A DNA stretch of 64,000 nucleotides, taken from positions 3,530,001-3,594,000 of the forward strand of contig NZ_CP048286.1 of assembly GCF_010365285.1 (NCBI RefSeq), in the 5' to 3' direction. Within the stretch, counting starts at the first letter, position 1, and each line of letters opens with the position of its first letter. Source of the DNA: Paenibacillus rhizovicinus. Its GTDB lineage: Bacteria > Bacillota > Bacilli > Paenibacillales > Paenibacillaceae. A program made the position numbers and the translations under genes. Positions 32,307 to 60,402 of this stretch are shown piece by piece. The notes under the pieces were generated by a model. That model worked only from the letters and a program-made list of their open reading frames with translations. It was not told the DNA's origin and did no database searches.

Positions 32307-33143
32307 TTAATGCTTCAACAACTGTCCCAGCTCGCGCCGCAGCGCCAGGAATGCCGGCATTTCCCGAACTTCGGGCGTTCGCTGCGCCGGAAGTTTCACG
32401 TGGAACGTTTTTAGAATTCGGCCTGGATTCGCGCCCATAACGACGATCCGCTGGGAGAGGAAGATCGCTTCCTCGATATCGTGGGTGATGAACAGCACGG
32501 TCGTCTTCTCCTTCTCCCATACCTCGAGCAGCATCTCCTGCATTTCCAGCTTCGTCTGCGCATCCAACGCCCCGAACGGTTCATCCATGAGCAGCACTTT
32601 CGGCCGGTTGGCGAGCGCCCTTGCGATTGCGACCCGCTGCTTCATTCCCCCGGAAAGCTGCTTCGGATAGGCGCTGGCGAACTTCTCCAGCTTGATCACT
32701 TTCAGAAAATGATTGCTGATCGTCCGCCGCTCCAGCGTAGAAATCCCCTTCAGCTTCGGCCCGTACTCGATGTTCTCGCGCACGGTCAGCCAAGGAAACA
32801 GCGTATAGCCTTGGAACACCATGCCCCGTTCCGCGCCCGGCCCGACGACCTCATCGCCGTCCAGCGTGACGGAGCCGTCCGTCAGCTCATCCAGTCCGGC
32901 CACGATGCGCAGCAGCGTCGATTTGCCGCAGCCCGACGGTCCGACGATCGTTACGAACTCGTTAGACCCGATACGCAGATCGATGTCGGCAAGCGCCTCG
33001 AACCTGCTTTTCTTCGACGCATACACTTTCCCCAGGCCGGAAATGACGATTTCGCCCGAATTTGTCGTCCCTGCGCGAAATGCGCCGATTGCGGAGTCAC
33101 TAGGTTCCGTATATACGGCTTCTTGCTTCTTGGCTGTTTCCAT
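32307..33143 (-). CDS. NitT/TauT-type ABC transporter, ATP-binding protein
   Basis: 278-residue ABC ATPase of the nitrate/sulfonate/bicarbonate class. Walker A GPSGCGKST, Q-loop QGYTLFPWL, signature LSGGMKQR, Walker B VLLMDEPFGALD and the switch histidine in LFITHDIEEA are all intact. GGGGAG lies 8 bases before ATG 33143. A roughly 30-residue N-terminal extension precedes the domain. It belongs with the permease and lipoprotein upstream. The riboswitch of this operon suggests guanidine or a related compound as substrate rather than nitrate or sulfonate. Confidence 0.9.
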   Translation of the reverse strand: METAKKQEAVYTEPSDSAIGAFRAGTTNSGEIVISGLGKVYASKKSRFEALADIDLRIGSNEFVTIVGPSGCGKSTLLRIVAGLDELTDGSVTLDGDEVVGPGAERGMVFQGYTLFPWLTVRENIEYGPKLKGISTLERRTISNHFLKVIKLEKFASAYPKQLSGGMKQRVAIARALANRPKVLLMDEPFGALDAQTKLEMQEMLLEVWEKEKTTVLFITHDIEEAIFLSQRIVVMGANPGRILKTFHVKLPAQRTPEVREMPAFLALRRELGQLLKH

Positions 33144-33206
33144 GCCCTTCACTCCCCGTTTCTTCTCCCATGGCGGGAGTTGTTTCCGTCGTCTTCCGGC
33201 GGACGG

Positions 33207-34007
33207 CTATGCCCAAGGGAACAGTCTGCGGTTCAAGAGCGCGAAGATGCGATCGCTGATCAAGCCGAGAAGTCCGATGACGATGATGCCGACGAAAATC
33301 TGATCCGTATTGAGGAAGCGCTGCGCCTTCATGATCGCATACCCGAGGCCGCTGTTGACCGCGACGAGCTCTGCCACGACGAGATACGTCCAAGCCCAGC
33401 CTAGAATCAGCCGGAGCGTGTTCATAAGCTGCGGCTGAATAGCCGGAATAAGCACGGTTTCAATCGCTTTCCAGCGTCCCGCCCCGAGCGTGAACGACGC
33501 TTGGAGCAGATCCGCCGAGACGCGGCGCGTATTATCGGCCACCATCAGCACAAGCTGGAAGAAGCAGCCGAGGAAGATGAGCAGCACTTTCGCCCATTCG
33601 CCGATTCCCGCCCACACCATAATGAGCGGAATGAATGCCACGGCCGGCATATAGCGGATGAATTCCATGGGAGGCTCCACGAACGCCTCTCCGTATTTGA
33701 ACGTGCCGGCGAAGATGCCGAGCGGAATGCCGATGATGCAAGCGAGGACAAAGCCCGCGGATACCCGGAAAACGCTGATGCCGATGTGATGCCAATATTC
33801 GCTCGTGCCGAGCAGCTTGATCATCTCCGTCAGCACCTGATCCGGCGTCGGCAGGAAGACGGGATTGACCGCCTTCGTATAGCTCAGCGCCGACCAGAAG
33901 ACGAGCAGCAGCAGGAATGAGAATCCGGCCGTGAAGGCAAACGGCCTCCCGCCGATATCCTTGAAGATTTGAAACCGATGGGGCTTTCGGCGTTTGGACA
34001 CGTTCAT
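33207..34007 (-). CDS. NitT/TauT-type ABC transporter, permease
   Basis: 266-residue BPD_transp_1 permease with about six membrane segments. The ATPase-coupling EAA-like loop is visible as ASFTLGAGRWKAIETVLIPAIQPQ. ATG 34007 is chosen because AAGGAG, partly overlapping the preceding stop, lies 8 bases upstream; the GTG at 34016 is less likely. It sits between the solute-binding lipoprotein and the ATPase. Confidence 0.92.
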   Translation of the reverse strand: MNVSKRRKPHRFQIFKDIGGRPFAFTAGFSFLLLLVFWSALSYTKAVNPVFLPTPDQVLTEMIKLLGTSEYWHHIGISVFRVSAGFVLACIIGIPLGIFAGTFKYGEAFVEPPMEFIRYMPAVAFIPLIMVWAGIGEWAKVLLIFLGCFFQLVLMVADNTRRVSADLLQASFTLGAGRWKAIETVLIPAIQPQLMNTLRLILGWAWTYLVVAELVAVNSGLGYAIMKAQRFLNTDQIFVGIIVIGLLGLISDRIFALLNRRLFPWA

Positions 34008-34012
34008 GAGGA

Positions 34013-35023
34013 TCACTCCTTGGCGGCTTTTTCTACGAAACGGGAATCGAACAGGGCATCGAAGTCTTTGATTTCGCCGACCATGTCGAGTTTCTTCAAG
34101 AAATCGGCTGTCGTCTTGGCGGTGTAGGTCAGCGACGAATAATCTTCGCCCTTGCTGAATGCCTTCACGTTGTCATCCGGCGTGAACAGCTTGATGCTCG
34201 AGAGCCCCAGCTTGAAGTCCTCCGGCGTCGTCTCCGCGTGCTTCGCCATCAATTCGATCGCTTCGTCCTGATGGTCCTTGAAATAGTTCAGCGCATCGAA
34301 CCAGGCGTCCACGATCTTCTGAATGTCGTCCGGACGCTTCTTCACGACGGAGTCGCGGAAGACGAGCAGATCCGGAATGAGGCCCGGCGTATCTTTGGAG
34401 GAGAAGAGAATCTTGCCTTTGCCCTCTTTGACCGCCGTCGTTTGGAACGGCTCCCACAGCACGGAAGCATCCGTCTTGCCGGAGATGAAAGCAGGGCCCG
34501 CATCGTTCACGGTCATGTTGACGTAGTTGACATCCTTCTCGGACATCCCGTTCTGCGCCAACGCCGTCAGCAGCAGCAGGTGATCGACCGTGCCGAGCTC
34601 CGTTGCAACGGTCTTGCCCTTCAATTCTTTAATGGAACCGATGCCGGGCTTGCTTACGATGGCGTCGCCGCCGAAGGAATTGTCGTTGACGAGAACGGCC
34701 TTCAGGCCGATGCCTTTGGAAGCCGGCGCGAGCGTGTCGCTGAGCGTTTGGCTGTTCGCGTCCACTTTGCCAGTCGCCAGCGCCTGGAGGGAATCGCTGT
34801 AGACGGGGAACCATTTCAAGTCGACGTTTACGCCATGCTTGTCGAAGAAGCCTTTCTCATCGACCAAATACCAGAAGAACCAGCCCGGCCAAGCGCTGAG
34901 CGCAATCGTAATCGGGTCGTCCGAGGAGCTCGTCGAGGCCTCCTTGGAACTTCCGCAGCCAGCAAGCACCGTGAGCATCGCAATCAACATAAGCAGCGCA
35001 ACCGATCGTTTCATCACTTTCAT
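34013..35023 (-). CDS. NitT/TauT-type ABC transporter, substrate-binding lipoprotein
   Basis: 336-residue lipoprotein: lipobox LAGC near residue 23, then the periplasmic-binding fold of the SsuA/ThiY class (ITIALSAWPGWFFWYLVDEKGFF, VDANSQTLSDTLAPASKG, LWEPFQTTAV). ATG 35023 has GGGGAG 3-7 bases upstream. The longer open frame only runs through the riboswitch leader. Its transcript begins with a ykkC-type riboswitch and terminator, so expression is ligand-controlled. Guanidine is the best guess for the substrate; this is inference from the riboswitch class. Confidence 0.9.
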   Translation of the reverse strand: MKVMKRSVALLMLIAMLTVLAGCGSSKEASTSSSDDPITIALSAWPGWFFWYLVDEKGFFDKHGVNVDLKWFPVYSDSLQALATGKVDANSQTLSDTLAPASKGIGLKAVLVNDNSFGGDAIVSKPGIGSIKELKGKTVATELGTVDHLLLLTALAQNGMSEKDVNYVNMTVNDAGPAFISGKTDASVLWEPFQTTAVKEGKGKILFSSKDTPGLIPDLLVFRDSVVKKRPDDIQKIVDAWFDALNYFKDHQDEAIELMAKHAETTPEDFKLGLSSIKLFTPDDNVKAFSKGEDYSSLTYTAKTTADFLKKLDMVGEIKDFDALFDSRFVEKAAKE

Positions 35024-35108
35024 GTTCTCCCCACTCCCATTCTCTTTGTAGAAGAAGAAACGCTTTACCGCGCCTTGCGGCAAGCCGGCCTCTTCCCCAT
35101 CATGCAGA

Positions 35109-35145
35109 AAAAGAAAAAGCCTAAGGAGAGATCTCCCAGGCTTTT
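35109..35145 (-). terminator. Riboswitch-controlled terminator in the NitT leader
   Basis: AAAAGCCT pairs with AGGCTTTTT around AGATCTCT and is followed by CTTTTTC. The 5' arm contains part of the conserved AAAAGCC of the aptamer, so ligand binding and terminator formation are mutually exclusive. Confidence 0.75.
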
Positions 35146-35262
35146 GTCCTTCCGTGTTATATGGCGCCGCCGAACCGCATAATCGCGGAGCTGCCTGCCA
35201 TACGCCGCCTCTTGGACCAGTCTGACCGCAATCGGTCACGGAACCCTAGACAGCATGGTGTT
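35131..35262 (-). ncRNA. ykkC-class riboswitch, guanidine-I type
   Basis: On the minus strand the conserved blocks occur in order: CTAGGGTTCCG (35239-35249), a TGACC/GGTCA hairpin, CTGGTCCAAGAG, a long P2 arm, then ACACGG-AAGGACAAAAGCC and TGGGAGA. These match the ykkC consensus. Subtype 1 senses guanidine; relatives of the class sense ppGpp, PRPP or nucleotides. The NitT-type transporter downstream is a typical guanidine-I neighbour. The aptamer flows directly into the terminator, implying ligand-induced antitermination. Confidence 0.85.
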
Positions 35263-35327
35263 CCCAAGAAAGTGTTGCGATGCCGGGAACCGCTATTCGA
35301 TTGTTAGATAACCTTACATTTGTCTCT

Positions 35328-35357
35328 ATTGTAAAAGCACACTAGGTAATGTGTCAA
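35328..35357 (-). promoter_or_regulatory. sigmaA promoter of the riboswitch-NitT operon
   Basis: TTGACA (35352-35357) and TACAAT (35328-35333) are 18 bases apart, about 65 bases upstream of the first conserved aptamer block. Confidence 0.7.
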
Positions 35358-35395
35358 TATACGTGTTAGGTTTTATTACATCATTTACAACTTAT

Positions 35396-36091
35396 TTAAA
35401 CAGTCAAGTAGTGCCGAATCACTTCATCGTTCAAATCGCCAAGGCCGCCCTCCCATGCAACGGTCCCTTTCTCCAAGATATAGAAGTAGTCGCCGACGCT
35501 CTTCACGAACTCCAAACTTTGCTCGACGAGCAGGATCGACGTCTTCCCGTCCGCCTTGATCGCACGAATGACATCGCGGATATCGTCGACGATGGAGGGC
35601 TGAATCCCTTCGCACGGCTCGTCGAGCAGCAGCAGATCGGGCTCCGACGCCAGCGCCCTCGCGAACGCCAGCTGCTGCTGTTGTCCGCCGCTGAGGTCGC
35701 CGCCCCTGCGATCGTACATCGTCGGCAGCACCGGGAATTTCTCGATTGCCGATTCCGGGATGACCCGTTTCTTCGTTCCGGAAGCCTCCAGCCCGAGCAG
35801 CACGTTCTCGAACACGGTCAGCTGCGCGAACACCTCGCGTCCCTGAGGCACGTAGCCGATGCCTTTCTTCGCCCGCTGCCCCGGAGCGCGTTTGGTCAGA
35901 TCGTTGCCTTTGTAGGACACCGTCCCTTTGCGCGCCTTCAGCACGCCCATGATGCTTTTCATCAGCGTCGTCTTGCCGACGCCATTGCGCCCGAGCAGGC
36001 AGACGACCTGCCCCGGCCTCACCTGCAGCGTAACGCCGCGCAGCACGACGCTCTCCCCATACCCCGCCTCAAGCTGTTGAACGGCTAGCAT
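35396..36091 (-). CDS. urtE: Urea ABC transporter, ATP-binding protein UrtE
   Basis: 231-residue ATPase of the branched-chain-amino-acid/urea class (LivF-like). Walker A LGRNGVGKTT, signature LSGGQQQQ, Walker B LLLDEPCEGIQP. ATG 36091 has AAAGGCGG 7 bases upstream. It overlaps urtD by 23 bases. It is the last gene of urtABCDE and lies just upstream of the NitT promoter. LivF is the alternative, but the complete urt order and UrtA features favour urea. Confidence 0.88.
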   Translation of the reverse strand: MLAVQQLEAGYGESVVLRGVTLQVRPGQVVCLLGRNGVGKTTLMKSIMGVLKARKGTVSYKGNDLTKRAPGQRAKKGIGYVPQGREVFAQLTVFENVLLGLEASGTKKRVIPESAIEKFPVLPTMYDRRGGDLSGGQQQQLAFARALASEPDLLLLDEPCEGIQPSIVDDIRDVIRAIKADGKTSILLVEQSLEFVKSVGDYFYILEKGTVAWEGGLGDLNDEVIRHYLTV

Positions 36092-36857
36092 CGGCATCCC
36101 GCCTTTTCCCCAAATACACTTCCGCTACCCGGTCATCGCGCTGTACGTCTTCCATCGATCCTTCCTTGAGCAGCTTCCCTTCGTGCATGACGGTAACGAA
36201 GCTCGCGAAATTGCGGACGAATTCCATATCATGCTCTACCACGACGACAGACTGCGTCTTGCGAATTTCCTGCAGCAGCTCGCCCGTCTTCTCCGTTTCG
36301 TTGTCGGTCATGCCCGCCACAGGCTCGTCGAGCAGCAAGATTTCCGGCTCCTGCAGCAGCATCATGCCGATCTCCAGCCACTGCTTCTCGCCGTGCGACA
36401 GTCCGCCCGCCCGCCGATGCGCCTTCTCCGCAAGCCCCACCATCTCCAGCTGCGCCGCGATGCGGTCGCTGTCCTCCGCCCGCATCTTCGCACGCATGGC
36501 GGCGAACACGCCCCGGTTCTGCTTCATGGCGATTTCGAAATTCTCGCTGACGGTCAGCGATGCGAAGATCGACGGCGTTTGGAATTTGCGTCCGATGCCG
36601 AGCTCCGCGATCTGATGCTCTTTCTTCCGCGTAATATCGACGCTTCCCCCGCCGAACGTCACTTTTCCTGACGCCGGTTTCGTCTTGCCGCAGATGACGT
36701 CAAGCATCGTCGTCTTGCCCGCGCCGTTCGGCCCGATCAGGAAACGCAGCTCTCCCTTCACCAGCGTCAAGTTCATGCCCTGCACGGCTTTGAACCCGTC
36801 GAAATCGACGGTCACCTCGTCACACCGCAGGATAACGGACTCCATCTGCTCCTTCAT
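36069..36857 (-). CDS. urtD: Urea ABC transporter, ATP-binding protein UrtD
   Basis: 262-residue LivG-class ATPase: [19 protein letters not shown], signature [11 protein letters not shown] (the SHGEKQ form is characteristic of UrtD), Walker [16 protein letters not shown]. The start is ATG 36857 with GGAGG 9 bases upstream, overlapping the end of urtC by 38 bases. The upstream part of the open frame is only a shadow of urtC. Confidence 0.92.
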
Positions 36858-37908
36858 CGGCCGCCTTCCTCCTTCTAAGCCATTTGAATTGACCAAACAG
36901 ACCTGCCGCCCCCTTCGGTAGGAAGACGACGACGACAACGAACAATGCGCCCATGAACACGATCCAAATGTTCGGGTAAGATTCGCTGAAGGTGCTCTTC
37001 GCGTAATTGAGCAGCACCGCGCCAAGCACCGCTCCGACCAGCGTGCCGCGGCCGCCGATCGCGACCCACAGCACCATTTCAATCGAAGGAACGATGCCCA
37101 TCATGGACGGAGAAATAATGCCGACATGAAGCACGAACAGCATGCCGGCCAGGCCGGCGAGCCCCGCCGAGAAGCCGAACGCGACCATTTGGTAGAGCGC
37201 CGGATCATAGCCGATGAACCGGACCCGGTTCTCGCCGTCGCGGATCGCCCGCAGCACTTTGCCGAATCGGCTTTTCACAAGAACCCTACATAATAAGTAG
37301 GCGCCGATGAGAAGCATGACCGTCACCCAATACAGCCATTTCTTCGTTTCGGGCGAGCCGAGCGAATAACCGAACAGCTTGCTGTATCCGGTGAGCCCAT
37401 TCGTGCCGCCCGTATAGGCCTGCTGTCCAATGAAGAGCGTCGTCGTAATGATGACAAGCGCCTGCGTCAGAATCGTGAAGTATACGCCTCGGATCCGATT
37501 GCGGAACGTGACGTAACCGAGGATGAGCGCAAGCATCGCGGGCACTAATATGCCGGCGGCGATCGCGAATGGCAGCGATGCGAACGGTTTCCAGAACCAA
37601 GGCAGCTTCGTGAGCCCGCTCCAGTCCATGAAGTCCGGGAGCTTGCCGCCGCTGGCGTCCAGCTTCAAATACATCGCCATCGCATAACCGCCGAGACCGA
37701 AGAATACGCCGTGCCCCAAGCTGAGAATGCCGGTGTAGCCCCATATCAGATCAAGCCCCAGCGCCACGATGGCATAGGCCAGGAATTTGGCCAGCAGGTT
37801 AAGCCGAAAATCGCTCAGCACGAGCGGCGCGCAGAACAGCGCGGCCGCGGCCGCCGCATAGGCGGCCAACAGCCAGAGCCGCTGCGCCGATAATTTGCGA
37901 ATGGGCAT
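36820..37908 (-). CDS. urtC: Urea ABC transporter, permease UrtC
   Basis: 362-residue LivM-type permease with eight or nine membrane segments ([29 protein letters not shown] is typical, given here only as a region near residues 55-85). It also has the EAA-like [15 protein letters not shown] segment. ATG 37908 follows GGTGGAG by 6 bases. It lies between urtB and urtD and overlaps urtD. Confidence 0.92.
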
Positions 37909-37987
37909 GAGGTTCTCCACCTTTCAAGGGCGCCTTCGCCCCGATGCATCCGTATCAAGCCAGATTAAATCAGTTGAAGCAGTGGCA

Positions 37988-38893
37988 TCAGTTATCCAGC
38001 GAACGCGAGCGCAGCGCCACGAACCCGCTCGGCTTCCACTGCAGGAAGGCAACGATGCACGCGAACACCAGCACCTTGCCGAGCGATGCCGTCGTCCAAT
38101 ACTCGAACAGCGTGTTGGAGAGCCCGATCCCAAGCGCCCCGAATACAGTGCCGACCAGCTTCCCGACGCCGCCGAGCACCACGACCATGAACGCGTCGAC
38201 GATGTAATACGTCCCGATCGCCGGTCCGATCGGACCGATGAGCGTAAGGGCGCAGCCTGCGATACCGGCAATGCCTGAGCCGATCGCGAATGTCATGGCG
38301 TCCACCCGGCGCGTCGAAATGCCGAGACAGGCGGCCATTTCGCGATTTTGCATGACCGCCCGCATGCGGCGGCCGGAATGGCTCTTGTAAATGTACACGT
38401 ACATGGCAAGCAGGCAGATGAGCACCAGACCGATAATGAACAGCCTTTTGTACGGGAATACGTTGTCGCCTACGGTCATGCCGCCATCCAGCCAAGCCGG
38501 ACTCTTCACGCCGACGTTCGGCGCGCCGAAGATGCTGCGCGCCAGCTGCTGAAGCATCAGTCCGACGCCCCAGGTAGCAAGCAGGCTGTCGAGCGGACGG
38601 CCGTAGAGAAACCGGATCAGCCCCATCTCCAGCACAAGCCCGAAGACGAATGCAACGATGAAGCTGACCGGAATAGCCAGCGCGAAATACCAGCCGAACA
38701 TGGAATCCGGCAGGTAGTCGGCAAATAGATTTTGCACGACGTAGGCGGTATAGGCCCCGATCATAATCAGCTCGCCATGCGCCATGTTGATGACTTTCAT
38801 GAGCCCGAACGTTATGGAGAGCCCGAGCGCGATCAGCAGCAGAATCGAGCTGACGCTGATGCCGTTGAATAGCTGGAGGACGATCACATCCAT
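37988..38893 (-). CDS. urtB: Urea ABC transporter, permease UrtB
   Basis: 301-residue LivH-type permease with about eight membrane segments. It opens [20 protein letters not shown] and has the family stretch [16 protein letters not shown] and [20 protein letters not shown] 38893 follows GAGAGGTGA. An intergenic gap of 231 bases with a hairpin separates it from urtA, which may give extra copies of the binding protein. Confidence 0.92.
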
Positions 38894-39009
38894 AAATTCA
38901 CCTCTCAAACAGCAGTTTGGACGACAACAATCGATTGCGAAGGAGTAATGCGGAGGAACGGAAAGCCTAGCGAGGACTGAACGACTTACCGTACCCAAAG
39001 CGCGGGCAA

Positions 39010-39045
39010 GGGAAGCATTCGAAGCATAAGCCGACGAATACTTCC
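39010..39045 (-). other. Hairpin between urtA and urtB
   Basis: GGGAAG-ATTCG arms pair across about 13 bases without a T-run. It may stabilise the urtA message or partly attenuate transcription into urtBCDE. Confidence 0.4.
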
Positions 39046-39124
39046 CCTTTCCTGCCGCAATGACAGTTATGGCGTTAGCTATTATGGAGTCGCGCTAGCG
39101 CTGCCGCGCGGCTTCTCAACTTGC

Positions 39125-40405
39125 TTATTTGCCTTCGCTCAGGCTCTTCGCCCAGTCGTAGCCTTTCAGGAACGGATCCGGCTTCACCGGGGAGCCGGAG
39201 TTCCACACCTCTTTGAACTGGCCGTCCGTTTGGACTTCGCCGATTCGAACGGTTTTGTAGAGATGCTGCGTTTCGCCGTCGATTTTCACTTTGCCTTCCG
39301 GCGCATCCCACTCCAAGTCCTTCGCCGCGGCTTTCACTTTGTCGACATCCGTGGAATCGGCTTTCTCAACCGCGGCCGCCCACAGGTAGACTGCATCATA
39401 GCCTGCTTCGATCGGATCCGCCGTTACCCGGTCATCGCCGTATTTCTTTTTATAAGCGGCGACGAACGTTTTATTTTCCGGCGTATCCGTCGTTTCATAG
39501 TAGTTCCAAGCCGCATACGTACCAGCCAGCACGTCCGCGCCGATTCCGCGGATCTCTTCTTCCGCTACCGATACGGACAATGTCGTTAGAGCCGAGGAGG
39601 AAATGCCGGCATCCTTCAATTGCTTGAAGAAGGCGACGTTGCTGTCGCCGTTCAGCGTGTTGAACACGACATCCGGCTTCGCTTCCTTGATCTTCGAAAT
39701 GATCGTCGTATAGTCGGTATGGCCAAGCGGCGTGTACTCTTCGCCCGCCAGCTCGCCGCCTTCGACCTTCAGCTGCTCTTTGATAATCTTGTTCGCCGTA
39801 CGCGGGAACACGTAGTCGGAACCGAGCAGGAAGAACTTCTTGCCTTTATTCTGAAGCAGCCACGTTACCGCCGGCACGATCTGTTGGTTCGTCGTAGCGC
39901 CCGTATACATGATGTTCGGCGATTGTTCCAGTCCTTCGTATTGCACCGGATACCAGAGGAGTCCGTTCAGTTCCTCGAATACCGGCAGCATCGCTTTCCG
40001 GCTGGAGGACGTCCATCCGCCGAATACCGTCGCGACTTTATCTTCGGAGATCAGCTTCCGCGCTTTCTCCGCGAATGTCGGCCAATCCGAGGCGCCATCC
40101 TCGACGACCGGCACGATTTTCTTGCCCATGACCCCGCCCTTTGCATTGATCTCGTCAATGGCCATCATTTCCGAATCCTTAACCGACACTTCGGAGATCG
40201 CCATGGTACCGCTTAGAGAATGAAGAATGCCGACTTTAATTTCCCCGCCGCTGCTAGTCTCGCTGCCGCTTCCGCTGTCGTCCGTTTTGGCGCCATCCGC
40301 ATTTGTCGTTGTTGAAGCCGCGTTATCATTCTTCCCGCAGCCTGCCAGCACCATCATCAGTGCCAGTAATACAAATACCCCGCTTTTCCAAAACTTTCTC
40401 TTCAT
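39125..40405 (-). CDS. urtA: Urea ABC transporter, substrate-binding lipoprotein UrtA
   Basis: 426-residue lipoprotein (lipobox LAGC near residue 23) with the Peripla_BP_5 fold: [58 protein letters not shown]. The YPVQYEG and TSSSRK segments are typical of UrtA/FmdD rather than Liv proteins. ATG 40405 has GGGAG 7 bases upstream. A GlnR/TnrA-like box overlaps the promoter, so nitrogen limitation probably controls the operon. No urease genes are in the window. Confidence 0.92.
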
Positions 40406-40482
40406 TCTCCCACTCCCCATCCATGTCCTGTTCTCTTTTTCCGAACGTTCTACTGGATATCCTTTCCATCGTTCGTGGGTTC

Positions 40483-40512
40483 ATTATAAAATCATGTTAG
40501 CTTGTATGTCAA
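40483..40512 (-). promoter_or_regulatory. sigmaA promoter of urtABCDE
   Basis: TTGACA (40507-40512) and TATAAT (40483-40488), both perfect, with an 18-base spacer. The predicted leader is about 70 bases. Confidence 0.8.
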
Positions 40513-40523
40513 TAAAGTTTACA
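40507..40523 (-). promoter_or_regulatory. GlnR/TnrA-like nitrogen box
   Basis: TGTAA-N7-TGACA, a perfect match to TGTNAN7TNACA, overlaps the -35 of urtA. A site in this position would normally repress (GlnR type). Confidence 0.65.
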
Positions 40524-60154: not shown

Positions 60155-60366
60155 CGAGGTTGATCTCTCTTATAGACGCTTGCGAGGTTAGCTGTCGGAT
60201 TCGGGCGTGAGAGTCGCCCTATTCGCTCGGGAAGCGAAAACTTCATGCATCCCACTGCGAAATTCACCCCAAGAAGATTTTCAATGTCTCTGCTGTCCGC
60301 TATGATACGAACAGTTTCAACAATTGGTTCCCCCGCTCTCCGTTTGCCGGAGATTAAGCGATTAAT
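60155..60366 (-). ncRNA. Cyclic di-AMP riboswitch (ydaO/yuaA class)
   Basis: On the minus strand the characteristic blocks occur in order: AATCGCTTAATCTCC, GAGAGCGGGGGAACCAAT, TTGGGGTGAATT, then AGGGCGACTCTCACGCCCG, AATCCGACAGCTAACCTCG and CAAGCGTCTATAAGAGAG. These match the ydaO-class aptamer. c-di-AMP binding by this class usually turns genes off through the downstream terminator. The controlled gene is a cell-wall remodelling protein, a typical target. Confidence 0.9.
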
Positions 60367-60402
60367 TGGAAAACGAATACATCTTTTGTAGCTCTGAAAT
60401 GA

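Follow-up and report, generated by a model that had tools for sequence, protein, structure and literature searches.

The leader in front of an ABC importer of Paenibacillus rhizovicinus is very likely a two-input switch for guanidine uptake, in which GlnR boxes at the promoter are combined with a guanidine-I RNA. The leader is located in a window of 64,000 nucleotides, which is the whole stretch of DNA that was analysed. Sequence and comparison with relatives revealed the aptamer, its overlap with a terminator, two boxes and the conservation of these boxes, which accompany genes for uptake and breakdown but are lacking at exporters. The part worth following is the proposed joint control by GlnR and guanidine, which is missing at the exporters. 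The features of the locus are:

32307..33152, minus strand: ABC transporter ATPase, nitrate/taurine-transporter-like (profile matches)
33207..34016, minus strand: ABC transporter permease (PF00528)
34013..35023, minus strand: NMT1/SsuA-type lipoprotein substrate-binding protein, probable guanidine-binding component (TIGR01728, TIGR03427, PF09084)
35108..35145, minus strand: intrinsic terminator, predicted by folding and kept in orthologues, with the hairpin AAAAGCCTGGGAG-ATCT-CTCCTTAGGCTTTTT at about 35145-35113
35131..35260, minus strand: guanidine-I riboswitch aptamer with a long P2 arm (RF00442)
35302..35318, minus strand: GlnR/TnrA box II, TGTAAGGTTATCTAACA, perfect, just below the -10 and near the transcription start; predicted repression site by analogy
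35328..35357, minus strand: sigma-A promoter TTGACA-18-TACAAT, 11 of 12 consensus bases, conserved in orthologues
35364..35380, minus strand: GlnR/TnrA box I, TGTAATAAAACCTAACA, perfect, immediately above the -35, with activation predicted by analogy
35396..40420, minus strand: urtABCDE urea ABC transporter, directly upstream of the leader and on the same strand
40507..40523, minus strand: third GlnR/TnrA box of the window, perfect, upstream of urtA

The gene order is urtABCDE, guanidine-I switch, and then binding protein, permease and ATPase of the ABC importer. UrtA, B, C, D and E each exceed their NCBIfam cut-offs. The order is kept in about a dozen related (congeneric) genomes, in most of which spoVT comes next, and a guanidine-I riboswitch is present in 20 of 22 congeneric genomes. 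The relatives named for the binding protein belong mostly to Paenibacillus and Cohnella species.

The element at 35131-35260 is, by its sequence, a guanidine-I (ykkC subtype 1) aptamer, an element of known kind and ordinary for its class, and its RNA would bind guanidine. The first-pass annotation had assigned the leader to this class and proposed a covariance-model search, which bore the assignment out: RF00442 (Rfam Guanidine-I) matched over the full model length with 78.4 bits (gathering cut-off 63) and no non-standard pair marked. It was the sole scoring family, and a permissive Rfam search of the leader stretch gave no other credible family; no ppGpp/PRPP subtype was preferred, with no subtype-2 model among the scoring families, and Rfam 15 may hold none. 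The hallmark blocks CTAGGGTTCCG, CTGGTCCAAGAG, ACACGGAAGGACAAAAGCC and TGGGAGA were all found in the order given earlier, in the aptamer (35260-35131) on the minus strand of 35109-35357, a span that had been placed correctly. Plain folding of the aptamer alone resulted in a z of -0.6, which is not significant; support for the aptamer thus comes from the covariance model and not from plain folding.

One base of the aptamer deviates from the Rfam consensus, with CCAAGAG instead of CCGAGAG (A for G), possibly touching the pocket, and the nearest named families of the importer are those for nitrate, sulfonate and taurine. Both observations would fit a ykkC subtype 2 riboswitch (for ppGpp, PRPP or NDP) controlling a nitrate/sulfonate importer, but we rejected this reading as highly improbable, given that RF00442 scored alone and that the marker base is kept. 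Guanidine-I and ppGpp/PRPP aptamers are told apart by a marker adenosine (A46 equivalent), which is a pyrimidine in subtype 2 (PMC6031431). In the CCAAGAG segment every adenosine is present and there is no pyrimidine, so that the subtype-1 marker is retained, the residue being placed by motif. Among 13 orthologous leaders the deviating position is A in nine and G in four, and in a wider set the A variant is also seen in 5 of 47 leaders of guanidine carboxylase operons and in 11 of 40 leaders of SMR exporters. With G and A interchanging within the orthologues of this operon as well as in leaders of carboxylase and exporter genes, CCAAGAG is ordinary variation and not a subtype-2 signature. For the same reason we rejected the idea that it marks a new specificity class. 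Furthermore, the gene context is nitrogen-compound import and guanidine breakdown, not purine or amino-acid synthesis.

The first-pass annotation had also placed the aptamer between a clear sigmaA promoter and an intrinsic terminator sharing bases with the aptamer 3´ end, and both elements were recovered. Two promoter-like sites were found in the searched stretch, with 0.3 expected. The terminator had a z of -3.9 against shuffles, and none of 200 shuffles was equally stable. The conserved 3´ end of the aptamer doubles as the 5´ arm of the terminator (AAAAGCCUGGGAG, 35145-35133), and by computation the two elements overlap at 35131-35145, which is about 15 bases at the end of the aptamer. When transcripts of increasing length were folded, the terminator appeared as soon as its 3´ arm was included. 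Because the terminator reuses the aptamer 3´ end for its 5´ arm, a ligand-ON antitermination switch is expected, and the aptamer with its overlapping terminator has the usual layout of such a ligand-ON transcription switch. The earlier term antiterminator is apt in so far as the ligand-bound aptamer itself would block the overlapping terminator; a separate antiterminator hairpin is not evident in the leader.

A 5´ stem-loop, GUUCCCGG...UUGGGAAC, was predicted by folding at 35263..35292 (minus strand), outside the Rfam model. Such a GUUCYC...GRGAAC stem-loop precedes the aptamer in 29 of 53 importer leaders and 32 of 47 carboxylase leaders (3 and 7 in shuffles, by a simple score), and its arms show compensatory changes in importer and carboxylase leaders (GUCCCC/GGGGAC, GCUCUC/GAGAGC). 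The arm sequence was not seen in SMR leaders. Compared with RF00442, the leader shares the sequence blocks, the pairing, the marker adenosine, the ligand-ON terminator design and the nitrate/sulfonate-type transporter context, and adds a longer P2 arm, the conserved 5´ stem-loop and the GlnR boxes around the promoter.

The GlnR boxes were absent from the first-pass annotation, one lying outside the span that it described (35364-35380) and the other inside (35302-35318); the neighbouring urt operon was not mentioned either. For the box search we used the GlnR/TnrA consensus TGTNA-N7-TNACA with its 8 fixed bases, and only exact matches were called perfect. The window contains three perfect boxes, with 0.28 expected. 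In an alignment of 13 orthologous leaders, TGTAATAAAACCTAACA and TGTAAGGTTATCTAACA were the two conserved blocks outside the aptamer. The third box, upstream of urtA, suggests nitrogen control of the urea transporter.

An arrangement of this kind is known from the nif promoter of P. polymyxa, which is flanked by two GlnR sites, the upstream one activating and the downstream one repressing (PMC6191146). As in that promoter, two GlnR/TnrA-type sites flank the -35 and -10 here, the first upstream and the second close to the transcription start. In nif, site I is located 58 bp above the -35, whereas the upstream box of the window is close to it; unlike in nif, the two sites lie nearer to the promoter and match the strict consensus, a riboswitch follows, and the boxes are known from sequence. 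GlnR is predicted to bind boxes I and II; the activating role proposed for box I is drawn from its position by analogy with nif.

The leader might instead be a guanidine-I riboswitch only, with boxes that are unused or have arisen by chance, so that control would be by guanidine alone. The boxes are predictions from sequence, the consensus has just 8 fixed bases, and genome-wide 69 perfect boxes were found in 7.5 Mb compared with 34 for a reversed-pattern control, so that half of these matches could be chance. However, all 13 congeneric leaders have both perfect boxes, in constant positions relative to the promoter, while the neighbouring bases vary, and none of 52 exporter leaders has a perfect box; we regard control by guanidine alone as quite unlikely. 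As positive controls, a perfect box was found in the region before ureABC and upstream of a gene for a 136-aa MerR protein (GlnR-type), which lies directly upstream of glnA. This protein matches the NCBIfam TnrA-type model NF053740 below its cut-off. All four guanidine-I leaders of this genome have at least one perfect box.

Whether guanidine is a nutrient or a toxin for bacteria is still debated. We sorted 191 guanidine-I contexts from Paenibacillus, its family and its order by the first downstream gene, with importer, permease, CgdA/carboxylase, hydrolase or chemoreceptor genes forming the uptake/breakdown class. Two pseudomonads, two false or doubtful pattern matches and one locus in front of a protein of unclear kind were left out of the final count, and a box was counted if perfect and within about 220 bases upstream. 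With the final aptamer pattern, which includes exporter aptamers with CCGAGGG, 124 of 134 uptake/breakdown leaders had a perfect box, whereas none of the 52 SMR exporter leaders did. A narrower pattern resulted in 124 of 134 against 0 of 40 (Fisher p about 3e-30), a value that treats related sequences as independent and is not to be taken literally, since the leaders share ancestry and it overstates the independent evidence. The best partial box matches of exporter leaders resemble those of shuffled sequence. The contrast is also seen within single genomes, four of which were sampled for both classes. Of the ten exceptions among the non-pseudomonad uptake/breakdown leaders, five (L159, L099, L104, L119 and L101) carry a box that deviates at a single base. 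In the remaining five, the promoter pattern recognised no promoter belonging to the leader itself, and these may lie inside a longer operon. Importers of the type found in the window often have both box sites and congeneric carboxylase operons usually the upstream site only, and in APC permease leaders the box site lies over the -10.

The guanidine-I regulon of Paenibacillus and its relatives is thus probably split by promoter type: uptake and breakdown genes, and in some genomes a chemoreceptor, would be under GlnR and the riboswitch, SMR exporters under the riboswitch alone, and guanidine would be treated as nitrogen source or as poison according to nitrogen status. The genome appears to answer the question of nutrient or toxin, in that the genes for using guanidine carry nitrogen-control boxes and those for expelling it do not. 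The split also offers a way to sort transporters annotated as nitrate/sulfonate/taurine behind guanidine riboswitches. No paper joining GlnR and guanidine riboswitches or describing such a split was found in the open-licence literature, a restriction that makes this weak evidence, and the paper on GlnR ChIP in P. polymyxa does not mention guanidine in its main text.

Several further arrangements were seen in the survey. In three order-level genomes (L226, L229, L236) a guanidine-I aptamer with a GlnR box precedes a methyl-accepting chemotaxis protein, with 4HB, HAMP and MCPsignal domains in L226, making a guanidine-induced chemoreceptor possible. At L041 and L050 aptamer and box are followed by an amidohydrolase-family enzyme and an ABC ATPase ~45% identical to that of the window. 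At L056, the locus of unclear kind, the guanidine-I aptamer lacks a GlnR box and is followed by a membrane-like protein of 107 aa, for which Pfam gave no match. At L036, L160, L165 and others, two guanidine-I riboswitches point in opposite directions, one to the APC permease and one to the CgdA/carboxylase operon, and the upstream stretch that they share contains several GlnR boxes.

For the two-input switch we propose the following course. GlnR would read nitrogen status via feedback-inhibited glutamine synthetase. Under nitrogen limitation, it would sit on box I, upstream of the -35, and activate; with plentiful nitrogen, it would occupy box II, at the transcription start, and repress. Without guanidine, the aptamer 3´ end would be drawn into the overlapping terminator and transcription would stop near 35110. 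With guanidine, the aptamer would keep these bases, allowing RNA polymerase to read into the importer genes. Both inputs would have to agree, and the importer would be made only if guanidine is present and nitrogen is scarce, with the caveat that transcripts from urtE could also enter the leader. The SMR exporters would guard against guanidine at any nitrogen status, with guanidine as the only signal and the GlnR input absent.

The host genome holds four guanidine-I copies. Besides the importer of the window, one precedes an APC-type permease and another CgdA-/CgdB-like UAAP1/UAAP2, urea carboxylase (1737 bits) and allophanate hydrolase. The remaining copy is followed by genes for another NMT1-type binding protein and a hydrolase of the isochorismatase family. 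The genome has urease as well, and with the carboxylase pathway it thus encodes a complete path from guanidine to ammonia.

The importer behind the switch is likely a guanidine importer, judged by gene association. Binding proteins with ~32% identity in Stutzerimonas and Pseudomonas likewise follow a guanidine-I aptamer, which supports guanidine as substrate. The same homologues, together with the carboxylase-pathway copy, back the earlier proposal that guanidine is the likely ligand for a transporter that automatic annotation would call nitrate/sulfonate/taurine. The binding protein exceeds the cut-off for TIGR01728 (210 bits) and stays below that for TIGR03427, the family linked to urea carboxylase (139 bits, cut-off 334). 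A PDB search with this protein returned only sulfonate, nitrate, taurine and THI5 relatives and no guanidine-bound template. Guanidine might also serve merely as a signal, with the importer carrying a different nitrogen compound, for example guanylurea, urea or a substituted guanidine. The distance of the binding protein from the carboxylase-linked family and the adjoining urea transport genes would agree with this, and guanidine riboswitches also govern methylguanidine breakdown in halophiles (PMC12508155). We nevertheless consider another substrate unlikely, since homologous binding proteins stand behind guanidine-I aptamers in two phyla and ABC transporters of this kind have been placed as guanidine importers in a review (PMC12186494).

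With the guanidine assimilation operons of Raoultella, Klebsiella and Synechocystis (PMC12186494), the host shares a riboswitch-controlled ABC importer and a carboxylase or guanidinase route. Unlike in these bacteria, a separate guanidine-I copy with a GlnR box stands before each of the importer, the APC permease and the carboxylase operon, and the importer of the window follows urtABCDE.

In the survey, guanidine-I aptamers at L007 (8932-10737), L044, L049 and L055 precede another NMT1-type binding protein, a hydrolase of the isochorismatase family, or both. The hydrolase weakly matches biuret hydrolase BiuH and RutB and could act on a guanidine-related compound. Elsewhere in the window, a c-di-AMP (ydaO/yuaA) riboswitch was detected at 60162-60370 on the minus strand with 93.4 bits.
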